This document shows, one piece after another, positions 2,948 through 22,530 of a stretch of DNA of 64,000 nucleotides. Position 1 is the first letter of the stretch, and each line of letters starts with the position of its first letter. A program made the position numbers and the translations under genes. Below the pieces are notes generated by a model, which was not told the origin of the DNA, searched no databases, and was given only the letters and a program-made list of their open reading frames with translations. Source of the stretch: Pectinatus frisingensis (GTDB lineage Bacteria > Bacillota > Negativicutes > Selenomonadales > Selenomonadaceae); the NCBI RefSeq assembly GCF_015732285.1, contig NZ_WIQU01000062.1, positions 50,997 to 114,996 on the forward strand. The letters run 5' to 3'.

Positions 2948-3022
2948 TTGACATTTTGGACGGTTAATTTTATACTGATGCTGAGCAATGGTGCTTATCA
3001 GAAGGGTAAGTGCCTTTTTATT
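2948..3022 (+). promoter_or_regulatory. Promoter plus 5'-end leader terminator (copy A) upstream of hutD
   Basis: TTGACA at 2948-2953, 17-bp spacer, TATACT at 2971-2976: a near-consensus sigma-A promoter. The expected start (~2983) coincides with GAGCAATGG. A 10-bp hairpin follows immediately (2990-2999 with 3005-3014) and then T-rich sequence, so the transcript begins with an intrinsic terminator. The rest of 2731-3046 shows no gene. This is one of five such leaders in the window (also 4605, 13566, 15715 and 22418). Confidence 0.72.
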
Positions 3023-3046
3023 TTTAAAAGAAGGGCGATATTATAG

Positions 3047-3619
3047 ATGGCTGTTGAGGTGTTTTTAAAAGAGAACTATACTGTCACTGATTGGAGCGGC
3101 GGAACCACTACGCAGATGTATATATTTCCGGAAAACGCTGAGTATAATAAAAGAAATTTTAAATTGCGGCTAAGTTCAGCAACTGTAAAAACACCAGTAT
3201 CCGAATTTACTGATTTGAAGAATATAGACCGTATTTTGATGAGTCTTAATAAAAAGATAGAACTCGAGCATAATAAGCAGGAAAAGGTCATATTGAAACC
3301 TTTTGAGGCATATTATTTCAGCGGCGGCGATAAAACTATGAGCTATGGATGTTGTGAGGACTTTAATGTCATGCTTAAGCACGGTTCATATAATAAAGCA
3401 AAGCTTTTTCTTAATGAGGCAGGGCAATTCGATCTGTATGGTGATGCAGATGAGTGTTTTTTATATGTATATAAAGGTGAATACAAGGTAATAACACAAG
3501 ATGGCAGCAGTTATACACTTCAGGCTTTACATATGATGCATCTTGATGATTTTTCTGCGGGAAAAATTATAAGACTGGATATGCAGTCAAAGATGGTAGT
3601 ATTTAAAATTAATTGGTAA
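3047..3619 (+). CDS. hutD: HutD/Ves family protein
   Basis: A 190-residue cupin-fold protein of the HutD/Ves family, near the usual length. Family hallmarks are WSGGTTTQMYIFP near residues 18-30, the FKLRLSSATV strand, the IDRILMSL segment and CCEDFNVML around residue 105. HutD is associated with histidine-utilization operons in many bacteria. Its exact role is unsettled; it has been proposed to bind formylglutamate and limit pathway flux. The start is supported by AAGGGCG 9 nt upstream. It has its own promoter and leader terminator (2948-3022) and lies ahead of the RpiR regulator, consistent with a control or accessory role for the catabolic operon at 4.8-13.3 kb. Confidence 0.78.
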   Translation: MAVEVFLKENYTVTDWSGGTTTQMYIFPENAEYNKRNFKLRLSSATVKTPVSEFTDLKNIDRILMSLNKKIELEHNKQEKVILKPFEAYYFSGGDKTMSYGCCEDFNVMLKHGSYNKAKLFLNEAGQFDLYGDADECFLYVYKGEYKVITQDGSSYTLQALHMMHLDDFSAGKIIRLDMQSKMVVFKINW

Positions 3620-3747
3620 CATTTATGCAGGCATTAAGTCCATAAGCGTTGATTGAAATAATGGCTGCAGGTAAGTGCTGTGTTTTGCATAATGTCTTGA
3701 GTATTAATCAATGAAAATTAATTATTATATTATTAAGGGAAACACAT

Positions 3748-4608
3748 ATGGGAAAGAATATTGAGACCTTTGGGCAGCTGACAAATATGCTTAAGCTTAT
3801 TGCAGATACATCTCCGACCTATAAAAAGATTGCTATGTATATAAATGATAATTATCTGCAGATAGTATTCATGACTACAAATGAATTGGCGGAGCAGGTT
3901 GGGGTGAGCCAAGGCAGTATATCAAGATTTTTTATGGCTTTAGGGTACAGAGGATATAATGACTTTTTGCAGAATCTGCAGAATATAGTAAGTAAGGAAT
4001 TAACAGCTCCTAAGAGGCTTCAATTCACTGAAAAGCATGGTGTAAAAGATAAATATATGCATTCAATTTTTGACAATGAATTAGCTAATATGGAAAAGCT
4101 TGGCAGCATAATGGAAACAGATAATTACAAAAAAATAGTTGATATGATAGCTTCTGACAGACAGTTGATTTTAATGTCAGCCAGAATGTCGGCTACTATT
4201 GTTCCGTATGTACGGTATATATTGAACAAAATGAGAAATATGGTTTATGAATATAAGCCGTCGACGCCGCAATGGGATACAGTAGAACTTATGGATCCTG
4301 AAAAAGTAAATATAATGGCAGTTATGTTTCCGCGCTATCCGCGTGTACTTGTTGAAAAATGTCAACGGCTTAAAGAAAAAGGGTTTCATATATATGGCAT
4401 TACTGATAGTGAATTTTCTCCGTTGATAGAATGTAGTGATGCTGCGGTATGTGTACCGCTTACGGTATCGTCAATCTTTGATATTTACAGTACACCTATG
4501 ATTTTTTTCAATATATTATTACGGGATGCAGCAAAGAAAATACCGGGAATTTCTATGCGCATGGATAAAATAGAGAAGATAGAACTGCAAAATAAAGTTT
4601 ACTATTGA
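3748..4608 (+). CDS. RpiR/MurR-family transcriptional regulator (HTH + SIS)
   Basis: A 286-residue DNA-binding regulator. The N-terminal HTH of the RpiR type spans about residues 15-80 (FMTTNELAEQVGVSQGSISR recognition region), and a C-terminal SIS fold (about residues 125-260, around ILMSARMSATIVPYVRYI) normally senses phosphosugars or related small molecules. The ribosome site AAGGGA precedes the ATG. Placed between hutD and the seven-gene catabolic operon, it is the natural candidate for local control. AATGA-N5-TCATT palindromes downstream of the leaders at 4706 and 13663 are possible operators (inference). Whether it represses or activates, and its ligand (perhaps urocanate or a pathway intermediate rather than a sugar phosphate), cannot be read from the sequence. 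Confidence 0.88.
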   Translation: MGKNIETFGQLTNMLKLIADTSPTYKKIAMYINDNYLQIVFMTTNELAEQVGVSQGSISRFFMALGYRGYNDFLQNLQNIVSKELTAPKRLQFTEKHGVKDKYMHSIFDNELANMEKLGSIMETDNYKKIVDMIASDRQLILMSARMSATIVPYVRYILNKMRNMVYEYKPSTPQWDTVELMDPEKVNIMAVMFPRYPRVLVEKCQRLKEKGFHIYGITDSEFSPLIECSDAAVCVPLTVSSIFDIYSTPMIFFNILLRDAAKKIPGISMRMDKIEKIELQNKVYY

Positions 4609-4692
4609 CATTTATTTAATAGAAATTTATAATATGATATATCAATAAGAAGCAACGGCGCTTTATTCAAAAGGGAATAGAGTGCTTTTTTT
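4605..4692 (+). promoter_or_regulatory. Promoter plus 5'-end leader terminator (copy B) of the hut-like operon
   Basis: TTGACA 4605-4610, 17-bp spacer, TATAAT 4628-4633 (a perfect consensus), overlapping the end of rpiR. About 18 nt later AGCAACGG (from 4651) leads into an 11-bp hairpin (4658-4668 with 4675-4685) and a run of eight T. The transcript would start with an intrinsic terminator ~90 nt before the first gene, so expression needs antitermination, read-through or another promoter. Confidence 0.75.
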
Positions 4693-4705
4693 TTATTATT
4701 TATTG

Positions 4706-4720
4706 AATGATATTTTCATT
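4706..4720. promoter_or_regulatory. Palindrome AATGA-N5-TCATT, candidate operator
   Basis: Perfect 5+5 inverted repeat in the short AT-rich stretch between leader terminator B and the first gene of the hut-like operon. The same arms and spacing recur at 13663-13677, also just downstream of a leader. It is possibly the binding site of the RpiR protein at 3748; this is inference from position and repetition only. Confidence 0.35.
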
Positions 4721-4784
4721 ATAAAACATTTGTGAATGAAACGATTTAGCAATGAGATATATATTTTAACAGAGGATGATGCTT

Positions 4785-6056
4785 GTGATAGAACAGATGA
4801 AAAAAAGAACTGTCTCAATTAATAAAGAGAGACTTCTATATCGTTTAGAAGAAATGTCACAGTTTGGATTGAATAAGAAAACAGGTGGAATTGACCGTCA
4901 GCTTGGCAGCCAGGCTGATAAAGATACAAGAAAATGGCTGAAGAATATATGGAATAATGAAATGAGGCTCAATGTTACAGTGGATGCTATTGCCAATATT
5001 TGGGGAAGCTATGGACAGCATTTAAAAAACAGGCCTATTGTTTTTGGTTCGCATCACGATAGCGTTCCTAATGGGGGCAGATTTGATGGTGCATTAGGTG
5101 TTTTGATAGCAATGGAGGCTATTCAGACGATAAAAGAAAATAATATTGCAACGCAGCATCCGTTGGAAATTATTTCTTTCACAGGTGAAGAACCAAATAG
5201 CTTTTCTGTATCAACTCTAGGAAGTAAAGTATTGTGCGGACGCTTGACTAAAAAGAATATAGATTTATTGAGTGATAAGAATACAGGAAAAACTTTAACG
5301 GAAACTATTGATGAGCTTGGCGGCAGCAGTCAGAGAATAGATGAGGCTAAGCTTGTGCCAGGTATGATGACAGCTTTTTTGGAAATGCATATTGAACAAG
5401 GGCAATGTTTGTACAAGATGGAAAAGGCTGTTGCTGCCGTAAACTGTATCACAGGCATATATCGTGAAATAATAACGGTAAAAGGTGAGGCTAATCATGC
5501 TGGAACGACTCATTTGCAGGACAGACGCGATGCATTGTGCGCAGCCTCGGAATTGTGTCTTGCCATTGAGGCTATAATGAAACGATTGAATGATGTATCT
5601 GTTACAGTTGGACGTATACAAATAAAGCCAAATGCTTCTAATATAATACCTGGTGAAGCAAAATTCACAATAGATATGAGAACTGCTTATCCCGGGAGAA
5701 AAAGACAGGCATTGGCAATATTGACAGAAAAGGTAAAAGAAATAACTGATAGGCGCGGTGTAAAAATTATACGTGAACTTAATCTTGATCAGTCGGAAAT
5801 GCCTATGGATAAGGAAGTGATAAATGCTGTTTTACGGGCATCAGAACTTGAAGAACAGCAGTCAATACAGCTTGTGAGTATGGCTGGGCATGATGCGGCT
5901 AATATGGCACGCCTTACTAAGACAGCAATGCTGTTTGTACAAAGTGTGAAAGGATACAGCCATTGTCCGGAAGAATATACAGCATCACAGGAAATTGAAA
6001 TAGCAGCACAGGTTTATCTTGATACATTATTGATCTTGGATAGGGAGTTAAAATAA
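4785..6056 (+). CDS. M20-family Zn-dependent amidohydrolase (allantoate amidohydrolase / N-carbamoylase-like)
   Basis: Hydrolase of about 423 residues, typical for the allantoate amidohydrolase/N-carbamoyl-L-amino-acid hydrolase/ureidopropionase group. Visible metal-site motifs are GSHHDSVPNGGRFDGALGV with the His-x-Asp and following Asp, the GEEPNSF segment with Glu-Glu, LEMHIEQG, and the C-terminal His in YSHCPEEY. The dimerisation-domain motif (VKGEANHAGTTHLQDRRDA) is present. The first ATG (4776) touches the AGAGG ribosome site; the GTG at 4785 has proper 9-nt spacing, so I prefer it. It is first in a seven-gene operon with HutI and HutU. The family cleaves N-carbamoyl or N-imidoyl-type amides, so a plausible job is hydrolysing N-formyl- or N-formimino-glutamate in place of the missing HutG (inference). 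Confidence 0.82.
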   Translation: MIEQMKKRTVSINKERLLYRLEEMSQFGLNKKTGGIDRQLGSQADKDTRKWLKNIWNNEMRLNVTVDAIANIWGSYGQHLKNRPIVFGSHHDSVPNGGRFDGALGVLIAMEAIQTIKENNIATQHPLEIISFTGEEPNSFSVSTLGSKVLCGRLTKKNIDLLSDKNTGKTLTETIDELGGSSQRIDEAKLVPGMMTAFLEMHIEQGQCLYKMEKAVAAVNCITGIYREIITVKGEANHAGTTHLQDRRDALCAASELCLAIEAIMKRLNDVSVTVGRIQIKPNASNIIPGEAKFTIDMRTAYPGRKRQALAILTEKVKEITDRRGVKIIRELNLDQSEMPMDKEVINAVLRASELEEQQSIQLVSMAGHDAANMARLTKTAMLFVQSVKGYSHCPEEYTASQEIEIAAQVYLDTLLILDRELK

Positions 6057-6057
6057 T

Positions 6058-7395
6058 ATGACGGTAAAAATAATAAAAGCGTCAGCAATTTTTAATGATA
6101 ATATTCTAAAAAATAAAAGAGCTGTTGCTGTGAATATGGATACAGGTGATATCAAGAAAATAGGCCTATTTGAAGAGTTGCAGCAGGAATATTCAGATGC
6201 AGACATAGAGGACTGGGGAGAGCTTATAATTGTCCCGGGGAGTGTTAATGCTCATAATCATAGCTTTCAGAGTCTATTGAGAGGTATAGCTGCTGACAGA
6301 CCTTTTTTAGAATGGCGGGATAATTCTCTTTACAAGTTTTCGCCGCGAATGCGTCTCGACGATATCTATACAGGAGCTTTATTTGCTTTTACTGAAATGA
6401 TGAAATGCGGTGTTACTACCGTGTCAGATTTTTTTTATCTGCATCAGTTTGGCAGCCAGAGTGATGAAGCGGTAATTCAAGCGGCAAAGGATGCCGGTAT
6501 ACGGCTGGTTGTTGCCAGTACTATGTATGATTGGAGCGGAGCACCTTCAGGTTATGTAGAAAATGTAAAAATAGCTAGGAAACGTACTGAAATCTTGATG
6601 AAAAAATATTCCGGCGGCATGGTAAAAGTAATACCGGCACCACATAGCCTTCATGCAGCTTCACCGGAAATGATAATGGCTGGGCATAAGCTGGCACAGG
6701 AATATGGTACGCCATATCATATTCATGTGGCAGAGGAAATGTTTGAAGTGGAACAGGTCAAAAGGGAACATGGTATGACACCACTTGCTTATTTGGATTC
6801 ATTGGGAGTAGTTGATGAGCATATGTCAATAATTCATGGTGTATGGCTCAATAATACTGAAATAAAAACAATGGGGCAAAAGGGAGCACATCTTATATAC
6901 TGTCCATCCAGCAATATGTTTTTGGCTGATGGGATCACTGATATACCAGCTTATATGAAAAATGGCGTACCGATTGCCTTGGGCAGCGATGGTGCCTGTG
7001 GTAATAATCGTATCAGCGTATTCGAAGAAATGCGCATGGTTTCCATATTGCAGAAGGCAAAAACCTGCAATGCACTTTGTGTAAATTACGAGGACTCTTT
7101 TAAAATGGGAACACAAAATGGAGGAATTGTACTAGATATTCCTGTCGGTAAAATAATACCAGGCTATAAAGCTGATTTTGTCGGTATATCAGTAAAGGAC
7201 TTTTCTATGCAGCCGTTAACGGAAAAAGGTCATCAGTTTCTACCAAACATGGTTTATTCTATGCAGCCTACTGCGATTGGCCGGGTGGCAGTTAACGGCA
7301 GAACAACCGTGATAAATAATCAGCTTGTCAATATAGTTGAGAGCAAAGTGCTTGAACTTATATCGGCAACAATGCATCATTTGGAACAAGACTAA
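6058..7395 (+). CDS. HutF-like amidohydrolase (candidate formiminoglutamate deiminase)
   Basis: A 445-residue amidohydrolase-superfamily enzyme with a single-metal site of the deaminase type: HNH in VNAHNHSFQSLLRG, His in HIHVAEE, His in IIHGVWL and Asp in ALGSDGACGNN. The H-x-H-S-FQ segment and the following DFFYLH resemble HutF (N-formimino-L-glutamate deiminase), which releases ammonia from the HutI product. More general members (guanine, SAH or cytosine deaminases) share the motifs. It lies 1 nt after the M20 hydrolase, four genes before hutI, which supports an imidazole-catabolic role. Together the two first enzymes could convert formiminoglutamate to formylglutamate and then to glutamate. 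The exact substrate is inferred from context. Confidence 0.7.
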   Translation: MTVKIIKASAIFNDNILKNKRAVAVNMDTGDIKKIGLFEELQQEYSDADIEDWGELIIVPGSVNAHNHSFQSLLRGIAADRPFLEWRDNSLYKFSPRMRLDDIYTGALFAFTEMMKCGVTTVSDFFYLHQFGSQSDEAVIQAAKDAGIRLVVASTMYDWSGAPSGYVENVKIARKRTEILMKKYSGGMVKVIPAPHSLHAASPEMIMAGHKLAQEYGTPYHIHVAEEMFEVEQVKREHGMTPLAYLDSLGVVDEHMSIIHGVWLNNTEIKTMGQKGAHLIYCPSSNMFLADGITDIPAYMKNGVPIALGSDGACGNNRISVFEEMRMVSILQKAKTCNALCVNYEDSFKMGTQNGGIVLDIPVGKIIPGYKADFVGISVKDFSMQPLTEKGHQFLPNMVYSMQPTAIGRVAVNGRTTVINNQLVNIVESKVLELISATMHHLEQD

Positions 7396-7418
7396 ATATA
7401 TAATAGGGGAGATTATAG

Positions 7419-8618
7419 ATGTACCTGACAGAAGAAGAACAGAAAATGCTAAATGGTGATTATGGGCAGGGAACGCAGCTGGCAATGGAAATATTGGCAG
7501 CCATAGGTGAGGCTTATGATGCACCCAAAATGGTGCCGGTGACGCGTACTCATGTTGCCCTCAGCAATCAGGAAGCTGATTTATGGTTTGCAGAAAAACT
7601 GGTAAAAGGCGGGGCAAAATGCTGCATTCGTCCCACCGTAAATCCGAGCTTCAATTTAAAGCAGTTTCAGGAAATAACAACTATAGAAAAAGAAGATGAA
7701 GAAATCGTGATGCGTACACATGCCGCTTATAATAAGCTCGGTGCGGTAATGACTTATGACTGTACGCCATATTTAGAAAAAAATGTACCCCGCTTTGGTG
7801 AAATAATTTCTTTTTCGGAATCAAGTGCCACACCATTTGTTAATTCTGTTTATGGAGCTCGCACCAATAGAGAATCAGCACAAAGTGCCTTATGCAGCGC
7901 TGTAACTGGTGTTACACCATATTATGGTTATTTGCTCAAGGAAAATCGTGCCGGACAGGTATTGGTCCATGTAGAAGCAGATATGGAAGATGATTTTGCC
8001 TATCAAATGCTGGGGTATTTCGCACCTAAAAAGATCGGATTTGACATACCTGTATTTGAAGGATTGAAAAATCCAAGCAAAGAAGCTTTGATGAATCTTG
8101 GTGCACAGCTTAATACTGGAGGAAATGTAGCGCTTTATCATATACTGGGGTTTACGCCGGAAGCATTAACTATGGAAGAAGCATTTCAAGGAAAGGCACC
8201 GCAGCATGAAGTGGTTATTACTGATGATGATTTAAAGGCTATGCGGGAAGAAATTTCTGATAAGAAAGGCAAAATAGATTTTGCTCTTTATGGTTGTCCA
8301 CATTTTACAATTGATCAGGTAAGCACGGTAGCTGATCTGGTGAATGGCAAAAAACTCGCTGTACCGCTTTTTATAATGACTTCTTCCTTGACACACAGTC
8401 TGGCACAAAAGATGGGATATATGGATATCATAAGGGCTGCCGGTGGTGAAATAGTAGAGGATACCTGTATGGATCAGCCCTGCTGGAAATTCCTTTATGG
8501 CAAAAAGGGAATAACTGATTCACCAAAATGTGCTTATTATACTAAAAGGCGTGATATGCAGTTTGTGATAGCACCATTAAAAGACAGTGTCATTGCAGCA
8601 TTGAAAGGGGAGTATTGA
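7419..8618 (+). CDS. Aconitase X catalytic (large) subunit, DUF521
   Basis: A 399-residue AcnX catalytic domain. Family signatures include the N-terminal LTEEEQKMLNGDYG start, the cysteine-bearing segment AVMTYDCTPY, SFSESSATPFVNSVYGARTN, and cysteines in the LYGCPHFTIDQ and EDTCMDQPC segments. The swivel domain is a separate gene starting 1 nt later, the two-subunit arrangement. Known AcnX enzymes are dehydratases acting on cis-3-hydroxy-L-proline or mevalonate 5-phosphate. No mevalonate or proline gene is nearby; instead it sits between a HutF-like deiminase and HutI. A dehydration or hydration of an imidazole- or hydroxyproline-derived acid is therefore possible, but no specific reaction is established. 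GGGGAG 12-17 nt before the ATG supports the start. Confidence 0.85.
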   Translation: MYLTEEEQKMLNGDYGQGTQLAMEILAAIGEAYDAPKMVPVTRTHVALSNQEADLWFAEKLVKGGAKCCIRPTVNPSFNLKQFQEITTIEKEDEEIVMRTHAAYNKLGAVMTYDCTPYLEKNVPRFGEIISFSESSATPFVNSVYGARTNRESAQSALCSAVTGVTPYYGYLLKENRAGQVLVHVEADMEDDFAYQMLGYFAPKKIGFDIPVFEGLKNPSKEALMNLGAQLNTGGNVALYHILGFTPEALTMEEAFQGKAPQHEVVITDDDLKAMREEISDKKGKIDFALYGCPHFTIDQVSTVADLVNGKKLAVPLFIMTSSLTHSLAQKMGYMDIIRAAGGEIVEDTCMDQPCWKFLYGKKGITDSPKCAYYTKRRDMQFVIAPLKDSVIAALKGEY

Positions 8619-8619
8619 T

Positions 8620-9024
8620 ATGGATAAGCAGTATAAATGCCATAAAATATCCGGTGGTAAAGTTAAAGGTGAATTATTGTTTTCTAAAGATGGATTATGT
8701 TTTTATCTGATAGATCCGAAGACAGGTAAAATTATAGAAAAAGAACACTGCCTTTATGGACAGTCTATTGCCGGAAAAATTCTCGTATTCCCATATGGTA
8801 AAGGAAGTTCTGTAGTACAGGCCGATGGTATGTATCAATTGAAAATGACCGGCATGAATCCAGCGGCAATGATAGTTGTAAATGCTGATACCACTTTGGC
8901 TGCAAGCGCAATCATTCTTAAAGCGCCGATGGTAAATAAAATGAGTGGTGATTTTTACAAGGAGCTGCATAACGGAGATATGGCAGAGCTGGATGCAGAT
9001 AATGGTATTTTAACTAGAATATGA
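8620..9024 (+). CDS. Aconitase X swivel (small) subunit, DUF126
   Basis: A 134-residue small beta-rich domain matching the AcnX swivel subunit, with motifs GGKVKGELLFS near the N-terminus, the central FPYGKGSSVVQ loop and AAMIVVNADTTLAASAII. The FPYGKGSS loop is the family's substrate-binding serine loop. It pairs with the large subunit encoded 1 nt upstream to form the active dehydratase. The ribosome site GGGGAG lies in the end of the previous gene, pointing to coupled translation and one-to-one expression. Confidence 0.85.
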   Translation: MDKQYKCHKISGGKVKGELLFSKDGLCFYLIDPKTGKIIEKEHCLYGQSIAGKILVFPYGKGSSVVQADGMYQLKMTGMNPAAMIVVNADTTLAASAIILKAPMVNKMSGDFYKELHNGDMAELDADNGILTRI

Positions 9025-9037
9025 AAGGGATATTTGC

Positions 9038-10009
9038 ATGAAACCTGTAAAAATTTGGATAATTGATGAAGAATGGCCGGAATATGAATATGAAACTACC
9101 GTTTTAAAAAGAGAATTACCGGGCTGTGAAATAAGATATTCAACTTATGACAATGAAAAGGATTTGGAAGAGTTCGGCCGGTACGCTGATATTATTTTAG
9201 CTCAGATATACGTTGATTTTTCTGCACAGATAATAAATAAATTGGAATGCTGCAAAGGAATAGCCGTTTATGGAGGCGGTTATGACAGAGTTGATATCGC
9301 AGCAGCGCGTGCCAGAGGAATAGGTGTTACCAATGTTCATGGTTATTGTATAGAAGATATAGCAGATTACGTTATGGCGGCAATATACAGTATATGTAAA
9401 CCATTAAATGGTTATAAGGATAATATTAAAGCAGGAATGTGGGGAGCACAGGCAGTAAAAAATGTAATTTTTCACAGAATTTCGCAGCGGACGCTGTTTG
9501 TAGCAGGATTTGGTCTGGTCGGCAGAGGCGTGGCACAAAAAGCATTGTCAATGGGGATGAAGGTAATAGCTTATGATCCTTTTGTACCGGAAGAAAAAAT
9601 GCAGGAAATGCACGTTATGCCGGTATGTTTGGAAGATGGATTTAAACAAGCAGATTTTGCAAGTATACATATAATATGTAATGAAAAAACAACCAATCTT
9701 ATAACGAAGAAATATTTTTCCATGATGAAACCGACAGCTTATCTTATAAACACCGCCCGTGGAAAGGTACTTAATGAAGCAGAACTTATTGAAGCAGTAG
9801 AAAACAAAACCATTGCAGGAGCTATTATTGATGTTGTAAATGTTGAACCACCGACAGGCAGGGAACAAATTTTTAATACAGGAAATATCACAGTAACACC
9901 GCATATATGCTACATATCGGCTGAATCTTATAAAGAATTGAAGGAACGTACAGCATATAATGCTATAAAAATGCTGCGCGGTGAAAGACCTGATGACTTA
10001 GTGAACTGA
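9038..10009 (+). CDS. D-isomer-specific 2-hydroxyacid dehydrogenase (NAD-dependent)
   Basis: A 323-residue enzyme of the phosphoglycerate dehydrogenase/CtBP-like family. It shows the substrate-domain GGGYDRVDIAAARARGI motif, the nucleotide-binding GFGLVGRG (G-x-G-x-x-G), the catalytic Arg in NTARGKV, the Glu in VNVEPP and the His in TPHICY. It interconverts a 2-keto acid and a D-2-hydroxy acid with NAD(H). The gene lies 13 nt after the AcnX small subunit and 17 nt before hutI in the same operon. One speculative role is handling imidazole-lactate/imidazole-pyruvate, or the keto acid formed after an AcnX dehydration. Serine biosynthesis (SerA) is unlikely because there is no ACT domain and no partner gene. 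Confidence 0.85.
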   Translation: MKPVKIWIIDEEWPEYEYETTVLKRELPGCEIRYSTYDNEKDLEEFGRYADIILAQIYVDFSAQIINKLECCKGIAVYGGGYDRVDIAAARARGIGVTNVHGYCIEDIADYVMAAIYSICKPLNGYKDNIKAGMWGAQAVKNVIFHRISQRTLFVAGFGLVGRGVAQKALSMGMKVIAYDPFVPEEKMQEMHVMPVCLEDGFKQADFASIHIICNEKTTNLITKKYFSMMKPTAYLINTARGKVLNEAELIEAVENKTIAGAIIDVVNVEPPTGREQIFNTGNITVTPHICYISAESYKELKERTAYNAIKMLRGERPDDLVN

Positions 10010-10026
10010 AAGAACAAGGTGATAAA

Positions 10027-11271
10027 ATGGAACGTTTGCTGATAAAAAACTTGTCACAGATTGCAACACCTATAGGAAAGTCGGCTTTGAAAGGCAAGAA
10101 AATGGAAGACATAAAGTTTTATCATGATGGAGCCATTTATTGCGAAGATGGAATAATACAAGCAGTTGGTAATACTCAGGCGATAGTGCACAGATTAAAA
10201 CCTGCAGCTGAAATGAAAATAATTGATGGTAAAGGAAAATGCGCTGTACCAGGTTTTATTGATCCGCATACGCATTTTTTGTTTGGCGGCACTCGTGCTG
10301 ATGAATTTATTTCACGGCTGGAAGGTGTACCGTATATGGAGCTTTTGAAAAGGGGCGGTGGAATTGTCAGCACGATGAAGGCTACACGTGCTATGACGGA
10401 AGATGAAATGTATGCTGCCGGTAAAAAAACACTGGAAAATATGATAAAACAGGGTTTCACCATGATAGAAGGAAAAAGCGGCTATGGGCTTGATCATGAT
10501 ACAGAATTAAAGATGCTGCGCGCTATGAAAAAAATGAATGAAACTTTACCAGTATCATTAAAAACAACATTTCTCGGAGCACATGCTGTTCCACCAGAAT
10601 TTGCCGGTAATGCAGATGAGTTTATAGATTTTTTAATTGAAAAAGTTTTACCGGAAGTTGCAAAAGATAATCTTGCACAATTTTGCGATGTCTTTTGTGA
10701 AAAAGGTGTATTTACTGTAAAGCAGTCCAAGAAACTGCTGCTGGCTGCCCAGCAAATGGGATTAAAGTCAAAAATACATGCTGATGAGATAGTATCCACT
10801 GGTGGCGCCGGACTTGCTGTGCAGGTCGGAGCAATTAGTGCCGATCATTTATTGGCTGTATCGAGTACTGATATTGAAAAGCTGTCAGTAAGCAACACAG
10901 TGGCAGTACTTTTGCCAATCACGGCATTTTGTATGCGAAAAGACTTTGCCCCGGCTCGCCGCATGATAGATGCAGGATGTGCTGTAGCACTGGCAAGCGA
11001 CTATAATCCGGGCAGCTGTTATTCATATGCAGCACCGCTTTTACTGGCACTTGCTGTTATAAGCATGAAGATGAGTATTAATGAGACTGTTACGGCTATA
11101 ACGCTGAATGCTGCGGCAGCTGTTGATGAGGCTGAAACGGCAGGCAGCCTGGAAATAGGTAAAAAGGCAGATATTCTGCTTTTAAACAAACCGGATTATC
11201 GTTTTTTAGTTTATCTAACTGGTGTAAATATAGTTGAGCATGTTATAAAAAATGGCAAACTGTTATTTTAA
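10027..11271 (+). CDS. hutI: Imidazolonepropionase
   Basis: Hydrolyses 4-imidazolone-5-propanoate to N-formimino-L-glutamate, the third step of histidine degradation. Length (414 residues) and motifs fit HutI: PGFIDPHTHFLFGGTRADEF (metal His-x-His and substrate loop), IEGKSGYGLDHDTE, the metal His in KIHADEIVSTGGA, ADHLLAVS, and the Asp in LASDYNPGSCYS. It is followed 26 nt later by hutU. The pair is the firmest anchor for assigning this operon to urocanate catabolism. Confidence 0.95.
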   Translation: MERLLIKNLSQIATPIGKSALKGKKMEDIKFYHDGAIYCEDGIIQAVGNTQAIVHRLKPAAEMKIIDGKGKCAVPGFIDPHTHFLFGGTRADEFISRLEGVPYMELLKRGGGIVSTMKATRAMTEDEMYAAGKKTLENMIKQGFTMIEGKSGYGLDHDTELKMLRAMKKMNETLPVSLKTTFLGAHAVPPEFAGNADEFIDFLIEKVLPEVAKDNLAQFCDVFCEKGVFTVKQSKKLLLAAQQMGLKSKIHADEIVSTGGAGLAVQVGAISADHLLAVSSTDIEKLSVSNTVAVLLPITAFCMRKDFAPARRMIDAGCAVALASDYNPGSCYSYAAPLLLALAVISMKMSINETVTAITLNAAAAVDEAETAGSLEIGKKADILLLNKPDYRFLVYLTGVNIVEHVIKNGKLLF

Positions 11272-11297
11272 AAAATTATGCAAGGGAGTAATTTGGA

Positions 11298-13565: not shown

Positions 13566-13652
13566 TTGACAACCTAATAAATGCATATTATAATGAGTAC
13601 ATAAAAAGCAATGGCGCTTATCCTTTAGAGGATAGGTGCCATTTTTATTATA
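13566..13652 (+). promoter_or_regulatory. Promoter plus 5'-end leader terminator (copy C) of the TauC/TauB-type transporter
   Basis: TTGACA 13566-13571, 17-bp spacer, TATAAT 13589-13594. The transcript would start at about 13601, then AGCAATGG (from 13607) enters an 11-bp stem (13613-13623 with 13630-13640, loop of 6 nt; two more A-U pairs extend it) followed by a T-run. The stretch 13311-13565 before it and 13678-13759 after it carry no convincing gene. Confidence 0.75.
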
Positions 13653-13759: not shown

Positions 13760-14551
13760 ATGGGATCATTAATAGATGCATTTACACCTAAGGGAAAAAT
13801 GAAATCTACATATGTCGTTGTAATTGCAGCAATAGCATTCGCAATAATTTTACTGCTGTGGTCGGCATTTACTTTAACAGGAGCGGTTGATCAGTTTTTT
13901 TTGCCACCGCCTACTGATGTAATAAAAACAGCTATAAGTTTATTTACTCAGGGAGATTTCATAAAAGATATAGGGATAACGGTTTTTCGTGTTATGGCAG
14001 GGTTCATAATCGCGGCTGCAGTAGCGTTGCCGCTGGGACTTATGATAGGAACCTATGCACCTATGTCAGCTTTTTTGGAATATGTAGTTTCCTTTGTCAG
14101 ATACCTGCCGGCATCAGCATTTATTCCATTGTTTATTTTGTGGATAGGAATAGATGAACCGGAAAAGATAGCGGTAATTATCCTGGGAAGTTTTCCACAG
14201 CTGATTTTGATGATTGCAACTAATGTGCGCAATGTACCGATGTCAATGATTGAAGTCTCCTATACACTGGGAACATCAAAGGCTGATGTTTTATGGAAAG
14301 TAATTTTACCAAAAGCGCTGCCCGATATAATGGATACATTTCGTACTGTTTTAGGCTGGGCATGGACATATGTAATAGTTGCAGAACTAGTAGGCGCATC
14401 TTCCGGCATAGGGTTTATGATAATTCAGTCACAGAGGATGATGAATACGGCTAATATTTTTGTTGGCATTTTATCTATAGGATTTATAGGAATGATTATT
14501 GATGTTTTATTTAAACTTTGTCATAAGAAATTTTTCTTCTGGAATAATTAA
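13760..14551 (+). CDS. ABC transporter permease, TauC/SsuC/ThiX type
   Basis: A 263-residue inner-membrane permease with about six hydrophobic helices. The family's EAA-type loop appears as IEVSYTLGTSKADVLWKVILPKALP (residues ~170-195), the coupling site for the ATPase. The YLPASAFIPLFILWIG segment is typical of nitrate/taurine/sulfonate-type importers. GGAGG lies 7 nt before the ATG. It is followed by its ATPase, a small unknown protein, then the binding protein under its own leader. Given the hut-like genes upstream and the shared leader type, the substrate may be urocanate or another imidazole/amide compound. Taurine-type substrates cannot be excluded from sequence. Confidence 0.85.
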   Translation: MGSLIDAFTPKGKMKSTYVVVIAAIAFAIILLLWSAFTLTGAVDQFFLPPPTDVIKTAISLFTQGDFIKDIGITVFRVMAGFIIAAAVALPLGLMIGTYAPMSAFLEYVVSFVRYLPASAFIPLFILWIGIDEPEKIAVIILGSFPQLILMIATNVRNVPMSMIEVSYTLGTSKADVLWKVILPKALPDIMDTFRTVLGWAWTYVIVAELVGASSGIGFMIIQSQRMMNTANIFVGILSIGFIGMIIDVLFKLCHKKFFFWNN

Positions 14552-14573
14552 TGCATAACAGGAAGGGATACAA

Positions 14574-15386
14574 ATGCAGATTAGAGATATAGAAAATACC
14601 AATTTAGGGCTTGAGGTAGAGAATGTAACTAAAATATATAACATAAAAAAAGGCAATGTTTTAGCATTGGATAATGTTAGTTTGCATGTACATCCCAATG
14701 AATTTTTATCGCTGTTGGGAACGTCAGGCTGTGGAAAATCGACATTACTGCGGATCATTTGTGGATTAGAGAAAACAACGGAAGGTCGAATAGTAAATCA
14801 GGGGAAAGTTATAACAGGTCCGGGGGCAGATAGAGGAATGGTCTTTCAGGCATATAATCTTTTTCCATGGATGACTATTTCTGAAAATATTCAATTTGGT
14901 TTAAAGCAAAAAAAAGCTTCTTCTAAAGAAGCCAGGGAAATAGCAGAACATTATACAAATCTTGTTGGTCTTAACGGTTTTGAAACGCAGTATCCTAATT
15001 CTCTTTCCGGAGGGATGAGGCAGAGGGTGGCAATTGCCAGAGCTTTAGCCAATGATCCCAGCGTGCTTCTTTTGGACGAACCTTTTGGAGCATTGGATAT
15101 GCAGACAAGAGGAGTTATGCAGGAACTATTGTTGAACATATGGCAAAAATCACCAAAAACGATAATAATGGTGACTCATGATGTAGATGAAGCAATATTT
15201 TTGGCTGACAGGGTAGCGATAATGTCAGCCCGGCCCGGTAAAATTAAAGAAATACTGGATGTAAAGAAAGGACTGCCAAGGCCGCGTAACTATCATGTAA
15301 AAACATCACAGGAGTTTATCAAATATAAAGAAAGGGCAACTGATATTATCAGGGAAGAAAGTATGAAACTTTTAAATAGTGTATAA
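14574..15386 (+). CDS. ABC transporter ATPase, TauB/SsuB type
   Basis: A 270-residue nucleotide-binding subunit. It has Walker A GTSGCGKSTLL (~residue 50), the Q-loop VFQAYNLFPW, signature [15 protein letters not shown], Walker B VLLLDEPFGALD and the H-loop VTHDVDEAIFLADRV. Sequence and size match the nitrate/sulfonate/taurine group. It powers import through the permease 22 nt upstream. It lies on the leader-C transcript, whereas the binding protein is on a separate leader-D transcript, so stoichiometry could be tuned independently. Confidence 0.9.
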   Translation: MQIRDIENTNLGLEVENVTKIYNIKKGNVLALDNVSLHVHPNEFLSLLGTSGCGKSTLLRIICGLEKTTEGRIVNQGKVITGPGADRGMVFQAYNLFPWMTISENIQFGLKQKKASSKEAREIAEHYTNLVGLNGFETQYPNSLSGGMRQRVAIARALANDPSVLLLDEPFGALDMQTRGVMQELLLNIWQKSPKTIIMVTHDVDEAIFLADRVAIMSARPGKIKEILDVKKGLPRPRNYHVKTSQEFIKYKERATDIIREESMKLLNSV

Positions 15387-15714: not shown

Positions 15715-15797
15715 TTAACAATAAGGTGTGATGATATTACTCTAATGGCAAAGCAAAGGCGCTTATTCCAAGTAAGGGAGTAGGCGTTTTTGTTTTA
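15715..15797 (+). promoter_or_regulatory. Leader terminator (copy D) with weak promoter upstream of the binding protein
   Basis: AGCAAAGG (15752) leads into a 10-bp stem (15760-15769 with 15777-15786), followed by TTTTTGTTTT. This closely resembles copies A-C. The promoter is less clear than the others: TTAACA at 15715-15720 with TACTCT 17 bp later is the best fit. Confidence 0.6.
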
Positions 15798-15829: not shown

Positions 15830-15874
15830 CAATATGGTGGTTATTTAATTTATATATTTTGGGAGGTAGCAACT

Positions 15875-16909
15875 ATGAAATTAAAATGGGAAAAATTGAT
15901 TGCGGCTGGAATAGCATCAGCTATGCTGATTGTGGCTGCAGGATGTGGTGGAAGTACAGGTACGTCATCCGGTTCGGGATCTGGGACAGGATCGGGGTCG
16001 GCACAAAGTGACAAGGTAATCATAGGACAGTCGTCATGGATAGGTTTCGCACCACTTTATATAGCTGAAGAAAAAGGATTTTTTAAAGAACATGGTGCTG
16101 ATGTTGAAATTCAGTCAATTGAAAGCAAGACTGACAGCAAAACAGCGCTGGCAGCTGATCGGATTCAAGGTGTATCCACCGATATGTCCACGCAGGTCAT
16201 GAATGCGGCAGCAGGCATTGATTTAGCACAAATTCTGGCATTAGATACTTCAGCCGGCGGTGATGGCATAGTAGCTAAGAAGGAATATAATTCAATTGAG
16301 GATTTAAAAGGTAAGAAAATTGCACTTGATACTACAGGCGGTGCTGATTATTTTTGGTTTCAATATTTATTACAGCAAAAAGGAATGACACTTAAGGATT
16401 TTGATGTGCAGAATATGTCAGCAGGGGATGCTGGAGCTGCTTTTGTTGCAGGAAAAGTTGATGCTGCTATTACTTGGCAGCCATGGCTTTCAAAAGCGGA
16501 AAAAACTGATTTTGGGCATACCATAATAGACAGTAAGGCAAGCCCTGGCGTAATAGTAGATACATTCGCTATGAAAAAATCCTATATAAAGGATCATCCT
16601 CAAGTAGCAAAAGCAATTGTAGCAGGCTGGTATGAAGCTATTAATTATATGAAATCCAACCCGGATGATGCTATAGCTATTATTGCAAAAAGAATGGGCG
16701 AAAAACCGGAAAGCATAAAATCTGAGTTAAATGATGTAAAATTTTATGACCAAGCTGGTAATAAGGCTTATTTTGGAACTGCTGATAATCAGGGTGATTT
16801 TTATAAGGTTACTGCTTTGGCAGCTAAATTGTGGAAGGATCTTGGTCTTGTAAACAAGGATGTAGATGCCGCATCAATTATTGACGGTTCTTTTCTTGAT
16901 GCAAAATAA
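15875..16909 (+). CDS. ABC transporter substrate-binding lipoprotein, TauA/SsuA (NMT1-like) type
   Basis: A lipoprotein of 344 residues: N-terminal Lys-rich segment, hydrophobic core and lipobox VAAGC, so the mature protein is anchored through cysteine. A low-complexity Gly/Ser linker follows, then the binding fold starting VIIGQSSWIGFAPLYIAEEKGFF, typical of nitrate/sulfonate/taurine-type binding proteins, with VDAAITWQPWLSKAE later. The start at 15875 is preceded by GGGAGG at 9 nt; the longer frame from 15812 would place ~21 residues before the signal and is rejected. It is the receptor for the permease/ATPase at 13.8-15.4 kb. It has its own leader (copy D), fitting the usual need for excess binding protein. 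The ligand is unknown. Confidence 0.88.
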   Translation: MKLKWEKLIAAGIASAMLIVAAGCGGSTGTSSGSGSGTGSGSAQSDKVIIGQSSWIGFAPLYIAEEKGFFKEHGADVEIQSIESKTDSKTALAADRIQGVSTDMSTQVMNAAAGIDLAQILALDTSAGGDGIVAKKEYNSIEDLKGKKIALDTTGGADYFWFQYLLQQKGMTLKDFDVQNMSAGDAGAAFVAGKVDAAITWQPWLSKAEKTDFGHTIIDSKASPGVIVDTFAMKKSYIKDHPQVAKAIVAGWYEAINYMKSNPDDAIAIIAKRMGEKPESIKSELNDVKFYDQAGNKAYFGTADNQGDFYKVTALAAKLWKDLGLVNKDVDAASIIDGSFLDAK

Positions 16910-16967
16910 CTTGAATAGTTAAAAACTCACTGATGATGATATATAAAAAATAATAGTTCATGTACAC

Positions 16968-17019: not shown

Positions 17020-17032
17020 TATGGGAAAATAA

Positions 17033-17075
17033 AGGGGCGTCGCATGAATGTGTTGATTTCATAAAGATGCGGCTA
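17033..17075. repeat. Partial copy of a dispersed GTCGCATGAA...TTCATAAAG repeat
   Basis: About 40 nt closely matching 63059-63100 (shared blocks GTCGCATGAA and TTCATAAAG around TTGA). Here the inner GTCGCAT/ATGCGGC arms can form a small hairpin. The copy appears degenerate and lies in a 298-nt gap between convergent genes that is otherwise without a gene. Confidence 0.5.
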
Positions 17076-17151
17076 TTATTTACAAGTCTTATTAGAATTG
17101 TAAATTTCAGTAGTAAATACAATTCTTTATATAAAAAATTAATAATAAAAT

Positions 17152-17199
17152 AATGAGGCAATGGCAGTAAAATAAAAGAATTACTGTCATTGCCCCATT
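17152..17199. terminator. Bidirectional terminator downstream of ctpA
   Basis: Inverted repeat with ~19-bp arms (17152-17170 and 17181-17199, few mismatches) right after the ctpA stop on the minus strand. Confidence 0.75.
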
Positions 17200-17207
17200 A
17201 TTTATAT

Positions 17208-18362
17208 TTATTGTGCTAATTTTTGTTTCATGACATCTATAGCTGTATTGAGCTGATTATCAACGTTACCGCTGGTATCAAGTTCTACAGGAACGTCGGG
17301 TTCAATACCGGTACCATCTATTGAACGACCGCTTGGCGTATAATATTTAGCAATAGTAAGCTTGATAGCAGTTCCTTCACCTAAAGGAATTATTTGTTGT
17401 ACGGAACCTTTACCGTAAGATTTGGTACCAACAAGAGTGGCAGCTTTAGTATCTTGCAAAGCACCGGCAAGAATTTCAGATGCGCTGGCACTGTTACCAT
17501 CAATCAGGACGACAATCGGATAAGCAGATTGTTCCAGTTCCGAACTATAAGTTTCCTTGTTGCCGCTGCGGTCAACAGTTGAAACGATTGTACCTTTGGG
17601 AACTACTTGCTTGGCAATTTCAACGCAGCTGGTTAAAAGTCCGCCGGGATTTGAACGTAAATCAATTATCAAGCCTTTCATGCCTTGATTTTGTAAATCA
17701 GTATATGCTGCAGAAAATTCTTTACCAGTGTTTTCTGAAAACATACCTATTCGTAAGTAACCGATATTGTTATTAAGCATCTGATGTGTTACAGTGGATG
17801 TTTTAATAGTTGCCCGGGTTAGTTTTACACTGCGCTGGCCATCAGCATTTTTCAGTGTGAGTGTAACATCGGTACCGACAGGGCCTCTGATGTGTGAAGC
17901 TATTTGGTCAAAAGAAAAATCTTTAGTTGGGGTATCATCTATGGCAACTATTTCGTCACCTTGTTTTATACCGGCCTGTTCGCCGGGAGTGTCTTTCATT
18001 ACTGTAACAACATTAACAGATTGGTTATCCTTGTTATATTGCATAACGACGCCGATTCCGCCGAATGAACCTTCTGTTTGTTCCATCAAGCGTTTATAAA
18101 GATCCTGATTGAGATAAACAGAATGTGGATCGCCCAGGGAATTAACCATACCGGTTATAGCACCATCAATTAATTTACTATTATCCACATTATTGACATA
18201 ATCAGTCTGGATTAGTCGCAAGGCACCAAAAAAACGCACTGTGTCAGCAAGTTTATATTTATTAAAACCGAATAGAAAATAAAATATAGATAAAGTAATT
18301 AAAGAAGAGGCTATAAATACAATAAATACCAGCGCCGCCAGAAACTTTTTATTGACTTTCAT
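17208..18362 (-). CDS. ctpA: C-terminal processing peptidase (S41 family) with PDZ domain
   Basis: Membrane-anchored serine protease of about 384 residues. One N-terminal transmembrane helix is followed by a PDZ domain (around GGIGVVMQYN... GIKQGDEIVAIDD) and the S41 catalytic domain with the nucleophile Ser in DGNSASASEILAGAL and the general-base Lys in TKSYGKGSVQQ. Such Ctp proteases degrade or trim envelope proteins. In this genus-type neighbourhood it follows ftsEX and an EnvC-like hydrolase, so it may trim the division hydrolase machinery (inference). The first ATG (18377) lacks a ribosome site; the second at 18362, preceded by GGATGTGAT, gives the more usual MKVNKKF start. The choice is uncertain. 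Confidence 0.9.
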   Translation of the reverse strand: MKVNKKFLAALVFIVFIASSLITLSIFYFLFGFNKYKLADTVRFFGALRLIQTDYVNNVDNSKLIDGAITGMVNSLGDPHSVYLNQDLYKRLMEQTEGSFGGIGVVMQYNKDNQSVNVVTVMKDTPGEQAGIKQGDEIVAIDDTPTKDFSFDQIASHIRGPVGTDVTLTLKNADGQRSVKLTRATIKTSTVTHQMLNNNIGYLRIGMFSENTGKEFSAAYTDLQNQGMKGLIIDLRSNPGGLLTSCVEIAKQVVPKGTIVSTVDRSGNKETYSSELEQSAYPIVVLIDGNSASASEILAGALQDTKAATLVGTKSYGKGSVQQIIPLGEGTAIKLTIAKYYTPSGRSIDGTGIEPDVPVELDTSGNVDNQLNTAIDVMKQKLAQ

Positions 18363-18435
18363 AATTATCACATCCAATAGAGTTTAGTACCGGCCTTATA
18401 GAGAAGGAATTGTATAGGACGGTTTGTGGAGCTGG

Positions 18436-19563: not shown

Positions 19564-19576
19564 ATACTAATCTCCC

Positions 19577-20464: not shown

Positions 20465-21164
20465 ACCCATATCCTCCCGAAGCTTCATCACGTATGATGC
20501 GCCCATTTTCTATGGCTATGACACGCTTTTGCATTGTGTCCACAATTGTCTTGTCATGTGTGGCCATCACTATTGTGGTACCGACAGCGTTGATGCGCTG
20601 AAAAATATCCATTATTTCCCATGAAGTTTCGGGGTCAAGGTTTCCTGTCGGTTCGTCGGCAATTATTACGGATGGGTTATTTACAATGGCTCTTGCTATA
20701 GCAACACGCTGCTGTTCACCACCGGACAATTGAGAGGGAAAACACTTATATTTTTCCCGTAACCCGACAATATCCAGTACGCTGTTAACACTACGCAAAA
20801 TGAGCCGTCGGGGTGATTCGATAACTCGCATAGCAAAAGCAACATTTTCATAGACTGTTTTATTGGGCAGCAGGCGGTAGTCCTGAAATATTACACCCAG
20901 ACTGCGCCTTAGATATGGTAATTCACGTGTAGACATATTGTTTATATTGTAACCGTTTACAACTAACAACCCAGATGTGGGAAGAATTTCACGAAGCAAT
21001 AATTTAATGAAAGTGGATTTTCCGGCACCACTGGTGCCGACGATAAAGACAAACTCACCGCGAGTTATATTGATATTGACCTTGTCCAGGGCAATTGCGC
21101 CATTATCGTATACCATCGAGATATCTTTCATTTTTATGATGTTTATCTCATTAGGTGATTTCAT
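20454..21164 (-). CDS. ftsE: Cell-division ATP-binding protein FtsE
   Basis: A 236-residue ABC ATPase with Walker [13 protein letters not shown]-loop [20 protein letters not shown], signature [14 protein letters not shown], Walker [14 protein letters not shown] and H-loop MATHDKTIV; the [15 protein letters not shown] segment is typical of FtsE. AAGGAGAG lies 8 nt before the ATG. It partners with FtsX (overlapping gene). Confidence 0.95.
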
Positions 21165-21261
21165 TGAGGCAACTCTCCTTAATACCGGAATTTTACTGAA
21201 ATATAAGAGGGTTTTATCATAAATCTGTTATTACTGCCGATTTCATGGCGGGAAAGAAAAT

Positions 21262-22134
21262 TTATTCTGCAAGAACTTTTGTACCGGTTTCAGTTATAAG
21301 AATAGTTTTTTCCCATTGTGCCGATAAAGAACCGTCTTTAGTATAAACAGTCCAGCCGTCGTCTTCATCGGTATATACATCAAAATCTCCTGCGTTGATC
21401 ATTGGTTCGACAGTGAAGACCATGCCTGGAACTAAGAGCATGCCGGTGTTTTTTTCGCCGATGTGGTTAACAAAGGGGTCTTCGTGGAATTTTTTACCAA
21501 CACCATGTCCTCCCAGTGCAGTAACCACGGAATAGTGGTTCGCATGGGCATTTTTTTCAATAACGGCTCCGATATCACCGAGAAAATGCCATGGTTTAGC
21601 TGCGTTTATACCCAGTTCCATGCACTGTCTGGTAACTTCGACCAATTTTTTTGCCTCATCACTAACGTCACCAATCATAAACATGCGTGAAGCATCGGCA
21701 AAATATCCATTTAATATGGTTGTGATGTCTACATTGACGATATCGCCGCTTTTTAGAATGGTTTTTTCGGAAGGAATGCCATGACAAACAACATTGTTTA
21801 TTGATATGCAGATGCTTTTGGGGTATCCGGCATAATTCAGGCAAGCTGGTATGCCGCCATTGTCGACAATGAATTTATCAGCTATGTCATTGAGTGTGAG
21901 AGTATCCATACCTTCTTTTATATTTTCTGCAATTAAATCAAGTGCGGCATTATTTATCTTACCACTTTCAATTATACCCGCAATATCTTTTTCAGTTTTT
22001 ATTATTTCATGTGGTGGCCTTACCTGTCCCCTTTTAAAATCAAGTTTCATACCATCGATTTTTTCATCAAATTCAAGATGGCAGCGTTTATATTTTAGAC
22101 CGCTGCCGCACCAGCAAAGATCATTTCTATGCAA
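21262..22134 (-). CDS. map: Type I methionine aminopeptidase with N-terminal SEC-C motif
   Basis: Removes initiator methionine. The first ~20 residues carry a SEC-C zinc motif (LCWCGSGLKYKRCH), an extension common in clostridial-type enzymes that may help ribosome docking. The catalytic part has the metal ligands in GDIVNVDI, FADASRM, GGHGVGKKFHEDP, FTVEPMI and QWEKTI. Start: the ATG at 22149 has no ribosome site, but it opens the sequence ATGGAGGAA, so GGAGG sits 8 nt before an in-frame TTG at 22134. I take TTG as the start (290 residues). Confidence 0.9.
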   Translation of the reverse strand: MHRNDLCWCGSGLKYKRCHLEFDEKIDGMKLDFKRGQVRPPHEIIKTEKDIAGIIESGKINNAALDLIAENIKEGMDTLTLNDIADKFIVDNGGIPACLNYAGYPKSICISINNVVCHGIPSEKTILKSGDIVNVDITTILNGYFADASRMFMIGDVSDEAKKLVEVTRQCMELGINAAKPWHFLGDIGAVIEKNAHANHYSVVTALGGHGVGKKFHEDPFVNHIGEKNTGMLLVPGMVFTVEPMINAGDFDVYTDEDDGWTVYTKDGSLSAQWEKTILITETGTKVLAE

Positions 22135-22417
22135 AATATATTCCTCCATTGGTTTAATTATATGTTATGCAGTCGATTAAACAAAATAATAGACGATTTA
22201 TACATAACTATATTATATTCTAGGCTAAAATATAATAATCCTTTATTTCATGAGAAATATTATATTACTTATAATAATACCACGAATGGCAAAAGCCTGC
22301 GTGTTTAATACAGCATGATTATAACAGATGGTATTTGCAGTTGGAAAATTCGTATATGTAATAAATAAAATTGTGCTCTGATAACAATGGAGCATAAAAA
22401 AATTGTGCTTGGGTACA

Positions 22418-22530
22418 TTGACTGGATTAAAAGGTACATGGTAGAATGAACGTAATTCCTAAGAGCATATAGTTTTATCGAGCAGAGTCGCTCAATTTCC
22501 GTGAGGAGATTGGGCGGCTTTTATTTTTAT
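22418..22530 (+). promoter_or_regulatory. Promoter plus leader terminator (copy E) of the amino-acid ABC operon
   Basis: TTGACT 22418-22423, 18-bp spacer, TAGAAT 22442-22447. A ~35-nt leader then reaches AGCAGAGTCGCTC and a 14-bp stem (22487-22500 with 22505-22518, GTGA loop) followed by TTTTATTTTT. It is the most divergent member of the leader family and has a longer 5' segment. The remainder of the 470-nt gap 22150-22619 shows no gene. Confidence 0.65.

Follow-up and report, generated by a model that had tools for sequence, protein, structure and literature searches.

Antitermination by ANTAR proteins is described as depending on two small hairpins, each with a six-base loop that has A in first and G in fourth position (A1/G4), the second of which overlaps an intrinsic terminator (PMC3369931). 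For EutV of Enterococcus faecalis, the dimer is reported to make full contact with one such hexaloop, and the first hairpin has been read as a recruitment site (PMC8934654). Control of nitrogen genes by ANTAR proteins, and the existence of ANTAR regulons, are already known (PMC3369931). Here we report on 64,000 nucleotides (nt) of Pectinatus frisingensis DNA (contig NZ_WIQU01000062.1, positions 50,997 to 114,996; this whole stretch is called the window, and coordinates refer to it), where five transcription leaders, A to E, belong to a family of 11 in the genome. We consider it quite probable, judging from sequence analysis, that in each of the 11 a single ANTAR-type hexaloop hairpin overlaps the 5' arm of a terminator, and that the sole detected ANTAR regulator, predicted to bind this hairpin, likely allows read-through into genes of nitrogen acquisition.

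Leaders A to E, all on the + strand, follow a common plan: a promoter-like start, the motif RAGC-[A R N G N Y]-GCTY, and an intrinsic terminator whose 5' arm starts inside that motif. Leader A has its promoter at 2948-2976 (-35 TTGACA 2948-2953, -10 TATACT 2971-2976, spacing 17), the putative antiterminator hairpin GAGC-AATGGT-GCTT at 2983-2996 (hexaloop 2987-2992) and the terminator at 2990-3019 (arms 2990-2999 and 3005-3014, T-run 3015-3019); its transcript is predicted to begin at about 2983, such starts being set here 7 nt after the -10 element. Leader B comprises a promoter at 4605-4633 (TTGACA 4605-4610, TATAAT 4628-4633), the hairpin AAGC-AACGGC-GCTT at 4650-4663 (hexaloop 4654-4659) and a terminator at 4657-4695 (arms 4657-4668 and 4675-4686, followed by the T-run). 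For leader C the corresponding parts are 13566-13594 (TTGACA 13566-13571, TATAAT 13589-13594), 13606-13619 (AAGC-AATGGC-GCTT, hexaloop 13610-13615) and 13610-13647 (arms 13610-13624 and 13629-13643, with T-run). Leader D combines a weak promoter at 15715-15743 (TTAACA 15715-15720, TACTCT 15738-15743) with the hairpin AAGC-AAAGGC-GCTT at 15751-15764 (hexaloop 15755-15760) and a terminator with T-run at 15757-15791. In leader E the promoter lies at 22418-22447 (TTGACT 22418-22423, TAGAAT 22442-22447, spacing 18), the hairpin GAGC-AGAGTC-GCTC at 22480-22493 (hexaloop 22484-22489) and the terminator with its T-run at 22484-22525.

A sequence-only reading of this DNA had proposed five leaders with a shared plan, four with clear promoters and one with a weak promoter, and all five are found where it placed them. 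Its grading of the promoters agrees with dinucleotide shuffles (n=100), which match or beat the promoter score in no case for A, B and C, once for E and 31 times for D; A, B, C and E thus stand above at least 99 of 100 shuffles, and D has p=0.31. Against 200 shuffles, the palindromes fold with z-scores of -1.4 in A (19 of 200 shuffles fold as well), -4.8 in B, -5.9 in C, -6.1 in D and -4.2 in E. The shared layout is true of A to D, where 10-20 nt separate the -10 element from the loop, but E is longer, at 36 nt. The conserved start sequence that the same reading had singled out, AGCAANGGCGC, is indeed conserved; what was missed is that, within the arm of the terminator, it makes up an A1/G4 hexaloop hairpin. 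AGCAANGGCGCT can be set out as AGC-[AANGGC]-GCT, in which a short stem carries a six-base loop with A first and G fourth, and this hairpin is present in all five leaders. Because the terminator's 5' arm opens with bases that also form the second half of the loop and the stem's 3' strand, hexaloop hairpin and terminator are mutually exclusive; and since AGCAANGGCGC itself is an ANTAR hexaloop, the leaders would represent a one-hairpin form of a known mechanism.

The family extends beyond the window. A pattern search of the genome yielded four more convincing leaders, picked by eye, and the resulting nine aligned cleanly and served to build a covariance model, R1. When the 2.92 megabase genome was searched with R1, 15 matches were obtained at an E-value of 1 or below, 11 of which have the hexaloop, the terminator and a position before a gene; L049, L050 and L051 were set aside, no hexaloop being seen by eye, and L052, which fell outside the inspection by eye, is excluded from the count of 11. 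The nine seed members score at E<=1.3e-6, and below them come two additional members (E=0.0012 and 0.0027). Member J is a nifH leader whose loop has G at position 1, while in member K, an importer leader, the stem GAAC/GTTC represents a two-sided change at the second (inner) pair. The original family of five was hence real, in that its shared sequence recurs, and an undercount. Among pattern-search sites, C11:144847 was dropped as lying inside a reading frame resembling a major facilitator superfamily transporter, and others, in which no terminator could be made out by eye, were not taken up. A further hexaloop in this genome, AGC-AAAGAC-GCT (L033:2461, - strand, C65), lies between genes for a HisC-like protein and a permease of the ATP-binding cassette (ABC) type; it has no T-run, is near a ribosome-binding site and is perhaps a translational ANTAR site.

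The terminator helix is well supported by comparison of the nine seeds: 96% of its 81 cells are paired, and none of 500 shuffles reaches either this percentage or the covariation score, while the two-sided changes observed in four of nine pairs are a number that 38 of 500 shuffles do reach. Its 5' arm is strongly conserved and its 3' arm mainly has to pair, G-U pairs included, a pattern that suits RNA better than a DNA site. This bears on the view that the palindromes are plain terminators that stop upstream transcription, or operators that bind a repressor such as the RpiR-family protein encoded at 3748-4608; each element is in fact a palindrome with a T-run, and leaders A and B flank the rpiR gene, but the elements sit between a promoter and a gene, and we regard this explanation as highly unlikely. 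The stem of the hexaloop hairpin has three to five pairs in all 11 leaders. Computed energies range from -12 to -28 kcal/mol for the terminator in ten of the 11 (that of member H was affected by a trimming artefact and is unused) and from -1.1 to -5.4 for the hexaloop hairpin alone; with a strong terminator and a weak hexaloop hairpin, termination would be the default.

Relatives provide a broader view of the element. At least one match at E<=0.05 occurs in 58 of 80 related genomes, and five genomes of the genus itself hold 8-11 each. At E<=0.01 there are 8 matches in P. haikarae, 10 in P. cerevisiiphilus, 5 in each of two Propionispira, 5 in Sporomusa malonica, 10 in Pelosinus fermentans JBW45, 2 in Sporomusa ovata, 2 in one Selenomonas ruminantium strain and none in Anaerovibrio slackiae. 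Joined to the 11 own leaders, a set of 80 relatives' matches (mostly those with the lowest E-values, and a part of all such matches) gives 91 Negativicutes sequences, to which no hairpin filter was applied; the loop has A at position 1 in 83 of them and G at position 4 in 88, and the three loop-proximal stem pairs form in 88, 89 and 86. The fourth stem pair, which R1 does not model as a pair, forms in 60 of the 84 distinct sequences, where permutation gives a mean of 43.3 (standard deviation 3.4, highest of 2000 permutations 55); L163 and L164 were removed from this count as out of register, and like all such counts it is inflated by the kinship of the sequences. The pair occurs as A-U, G-C, G-U, C-G, U-G and U-A. 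One match, L120, was dropped from the genus set, since on visual inspection it resembles a terminator belonging to a T-box-like leader. The covariance model and the search for an ANTAR antiterminator had both been suggested in the sequence-only reading; the former reveals recurrence in the genome, the genus and the class, with a terminator helix that covaries, and the latter returned one ANTAR protein.

This protein, the only one with an ANTAR domain detected in the genome (E=1.9e-19), is a receiver-ANTAR response regulator, and its gene lies directly behind that of a GAF_PdtaS-PAS-HisKA_2 sensor kinase, in the manner of a PdtaS/PdtaR-type two-component system. Its nearest named homologues are in P. 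haikarae (90%) and P. cerevisiiphilus (88%), and its best matches in the PDB are Rv1626 and EutV. The GAF_PdtaS kinase, and a regulator closest among solved structures to Rv1626, recall PdtaS/PdtaR (Rv1626) of Mycobacterium, while the combination of a receiver and ANTAR response regulator with a partner kinase is shared with EutV/EutW. Eleven EutV residues are reported to contact the hexaloop (PMC8934654). Six of them (R142, K143, K149, E160, M172 and R175) are retained in all 59 close homologues (66-90% identical) of the Pectinatus regulator, and at Y164 there is Y in 48 and F in the other 11; in all 59, R replaces K147 and Q replaces R168, and N173 and R177 vary, the regulator itself having Q at R168, A at N173 and T at R177. 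A residue signature distinguishing the ANTAR proteins of one-hairpin from those of two-hairpin leaders was also sought; 5 of 14 stretches were usable, none from a genome chosen for its one-hairpin leader.

Across the phylum, element and protein tend to occur together. In a sample of 249 Bacillota genomes, R1 finds a match at E<=0.003 in 58 and an ANTAR domain is present in 126 (123 above the curated cut-off); ANTAR is found in 54 of the 58 element-positive genomes compared with 72 of the 191 element-negative ones (Fisher p=6e-15), and in at least 13 genomes a match lies within 10 kilobases of an ANTAR gene. Among the relatives, the 71 with ANTAR (one below cut-off) have a mean of 2.6 matches, compared with 0.44 in the nine without (p=0.003), and 16 of the 71 have no match. 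The proposal that these leaders form one attenuation regulon acting through an RNA-binding protein thus gains support, as a prediction from sequence, from the hexaloop, the single ANTAR gene and the co-occurrence across the phylum.

We also considered that the leaders might respond to some RNA-binding protein other than ANTAR or to a small molecule. The hut operon of Bacillus uses HutP, and in the LicT/SacY (CAT) and HutP systems a protein-bound RNA structure prevents formation of the terminator, as proposed here. These regulators have other domains, and neither HutP (PF09021; profile control positive in B. subtilis) nor the CAT RNA-binding domain (PF03123; four controls positive) was found in the genome. 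No Rfam family matches the leaders at gathering score, the seven gathering-score matches in the window all lying elsewhere; between 2700 and 22700 there are seven sub-threshold matches only, mostly at about 17,140-17,510 and off the leaders, the best with E=1.5e-4 at half the gathering score. One of them, to RyhB (E=0.39), overlaps leader A on the opposite strand. The sequence-only reading could match the leaders to no named riboswitch and argued that A to C are too short for an aptamer or a double stem-loop, and the Rfam result and the short gaps agree with this. With both the A1/G4 hexaloop and the co-occurrence pointing to ANTAR, another effector seems very unlikely. Protein-bound RNA structures that prevent a terminator are likewise described for Sac/Bgl antitermination (PMC3369931).

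Compared with the dual-hairpin leaders as defined by Ramesh (2012), the Pectinatus leaders share the A1/G4 loop, the terminator overlap and a stem of at least three pairs, and lack the tandem hairpins. Their likeness to the EutV/EutW leaders (PMC3369931, PMC8934654) lies in the hexaloop and in a hairpin over the 5' arm of the terminator; they differ in that no first hairpin is seen, in that the hairpin is at or near the predicted 5' end, and in that one regulator would serve many nitrogen operons. NasR-nasF and AmiR-amiE are alike in the attenuation of nitrogen genes by ANTAR, but are described as having two hairpins and one locus each (PMC3369931), and the actinobacterial ANTAR RNAs have been curated as dual stem-loops of which few precede a terminator (PMC8164766). 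Since earlier covariance searches, as set out in these articles (PMC3369931, PMC8164766), were defined on two hairpins, they would hardly have returned one-hairpin leaders. We found no description of a one-hairpin transcription antiterminator in the literature searched, which held few subscription papers and no supplementary tables.

The absence of a first hairpin was assessed by scanning for a second A1/G4 hexaloop upstream of each hairpin. Under a strict rule (four base pairs (bp), within 16 nt), none was found in nine own leaders, 28 of the genus and 41 of other Negativicutes, and five in 25 of other Bacillota, 3 genus, 7 other Negativicutes and 2 other Bacillota matches that fail the hairpin rule being left out. 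Four looser rules returned 0 of 9 own and 0 of 30 genus leaders each time, and 5-8 of 25 in other Bacillota, where 0.5-1.3 were expected; the scan can therefore detect two hairpins of the classical form. With J and K included, all 11 own leaders remain devoid of a first hairpin under five rules, the fifth asking for 3 bp within 45 nt, and none is seen in 41 leaders of the genus (11 own and 30 others). Six of the other Bacillota matches (L178, L182, L183, L193, L194 and L195) are clear two-hairpin ANTAR leaders, recovered by a model that knows the second hairpin alone, and they can serve as positive controls; the first loop of L195 has G at position 1.

In most of these leaders there is also little room. 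A first hairpin of 3 bp with a 3-nt linker needs, by arithmetic, at least 25 nt between the -10 element and the loop. This gap is 10, 11, 15, 16, 18, 20 and 36 nt in the seven of 11 own leaders with a promoter at p<=0.05, and 10-21 nt in 17 of 23 from the genus, the others having 25, 28 (four times) and 38 nt, while the gap measures 42-57 nt where a first hairpin is visible. With gaps below 25 nt, 23 of the 30 good-promoter leaders of the genus (own included) have no room for a first hairpin; in these 23 the hairpin begins 0-11 nt after the predicted start, and in the hutD leader, with its gap of 10 nt, that start is the first base of the hairpin. Short gaps also occur in other Bacillota (7 of 19 below 25 nt, for example L177 with 11, L192 with 14 and L189 with 15). 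In L176, L177 and L180, also from other Bacillota, a second hexaloop, GGC-AATGGA-GCC, lies right after the first terminator, which suggests tandem one-hairpin attenuators.

These data also allow us to weigh the idea that the leaders are ordinary two-hairpin ANTAR leaders in which the first hairpin is non-canonical or transcription starts further upstream. Two-hairpin forms are well established (PMC3369931) and occur among the R1 matches of other Bacillota, and homologues of leader E (L097, L100, L107 and L122) have a conserved stretch like CCAATARYTGAGAATATA, with no hexaloop hairpin, between promoter and hairpin. In other Negativicutes with a good promoter, 6 of 21 gaps are below 25 nt and 15 are 25-66 nt, long enough for two hairpins. 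The 5'-terminal layout is for this reason a trait of the genus more than of the class; in other Negativicutes there is, as far as sequence indicates, a single hairpin, which in most cases lies away from the 5' end. However, even a 3-bp hexaloop with A or G first and G fourth ends within 45 nt upstream in none of the 11 own leaders, and within 20 nt in none of the 30 from the genus, and the gaps of 10-20 nt at most significant own promoters and of up to 21 nt in 17 of 23 genus leaders compare with 42-57 nt where a first hairpin exists. We therefore judge the two-hairpin explanation unlikely.

For the single-hairpin leaders we envisage the following sequence of events. In the default state the strong terminator would stop transcription. 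The kinase, probably under nitrogen limitation, as the gene list suggests, would phosphorylate the regulator, and the phosphorylated ANTAR dimer would stabilise the hexaloop hairpin as it emerges from the polymerase, so that the terminator cannot form. Recruitment would take place on the only hairpin, with no upstream counterpart to the one that recruits the protein in the EutV model. With a predicted start 0-11 nt before the hairpin in most leaders of the genus, the hairpin on which the protein acts would be the only one and would stand at the 5' terminus of the transcript, and this position might make recruitment on one hairpin possible.

A number of observations weigh against this proposal. 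The first hairpin of the eut leader is reported to be obligatory, deletion of P1 having ablated eutP induction (PMC3369931), and in vitro, antitermination was lost when the linker was made 20 nt longer (PMC8934654); given this published need, a leader with one hairpin might function inefficiently or through some other mechanism. The hexaloop stem in the nine seeds alone is not separated from shuffles, three of its four pairs being invariant, and the pattern by which four of the nine seeds were picked up had prescribed the inner pairs of this stem. Promoters are not significant in four of the 11 own leaders (D, G and I, p 0.13-0.31; J, p 0.13), and a first hairpin, which the scan shows in none of them, could be accommodated in E (36 nt) and, if their uncertain promoters are taken at face value, in G (35), I (61) and J (25). 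The looser rules pick up 0-2 weak first-hairpin candidates in 43 leaders of other Negativicutes, which is chance level (0.6-2.1 expected). Finally, 4 of the 58 element-positive Bacillota genomes have no ANTAR protein, and zero or few matches are seen in many ANTAR-bearing genomes of the same family. On balance, we incline to the view that one-hairpin, 5'-terminal leaders form a class of ANTAR antiterminator that is the rule in Pectinatus and occurs also in other Negativicutes and other Bacillota, with one ANTAR two-component system as a general regulator of nitrogen scavenging.

The genes behind the leaders have a nitrogen theme, in this genome and in its relatives. In the window, all on the + strand, leader A precedes hutD (PF05962, 3047-3619), and leader B an operon at 4776-13310 for an allantoate/N-carbamoyl amidohydrolase family (AllC-like) protein, a HutF-like amidohydrolase, aconitase X with its swivel subunit, a 2-hydroxyacid dehydrogenase, HutI and HutU, where HutI and HutU score above curated cut-offs and HutF below. 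The aconitase X pair and the dehydrogenase make this an unusual gene set for histidine breakdown, and an amidohydrolase of the operon has a strong sub-threshold match to the N-carbamyl-L-glutamate amidohydrolase ErtE. Behind leader C lies a Tau/Ssu-type importer (13760-15386), with a permease at 13760-14551 (PF00528) and an ATPase at 14574-15386, and behind leader D its SsuA-family substrate-binding protein (15875-16909; TIGR01728, below the curated cut-off). Leader E is followed at 22620-24990 by a polar amino-acid-type ABC importer whose binding protein matches fall below curated cut-offs. The rest of the window holds ordinary features, namely a T-box leader (40501-40732), a ribosomal protein L10 leader (53474-53632) and a cluster of five tRNA genes (50521-51032).

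Amino-acid-type importers follow F and K as well as E, and the remaining own leaders precede a urea importer, nifH (J), a HisC-like aminotransferase together with the permease of an importer, and pxpABC (5-oxoprolinase) together with an NRAMP-like transporter. UrtA, the Pxp subunits, HutI, HutU and HutD are above a curated family cut-off; for the ATPase and permease components of the E and K importers, the ATPase of the Tau-type importer and the nifH of J, names were given by eye from the translations. For 72 of the 80 relatives' matches, the other eight having no usable reading frame nearby, the genes on the 3' side include, in raw counts to which some false matches contribute, 13 ABC ATPases, 6 PxpA, 6 M20 amidohydrolases, 4 class-III aminotransferases, and 3 each of NifH, ammonium transporters, uracil/xanthine permeases and P-II domains.

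The current model holds that two hexaloops are needed because the upstream hairpin recruits the protein to the polymerase (PMC8934654). The leaders described here look like natural transcription antiterminators with a single hexaloop, many of them predicted to start at the hairpin itself, which would make the need for two hexaloops directly testable, and they suggest how these bacteria may co-ordinate the acquisition of nitrogen from histidine, urea, 5-oxoproline and amino acids, together with nifH.

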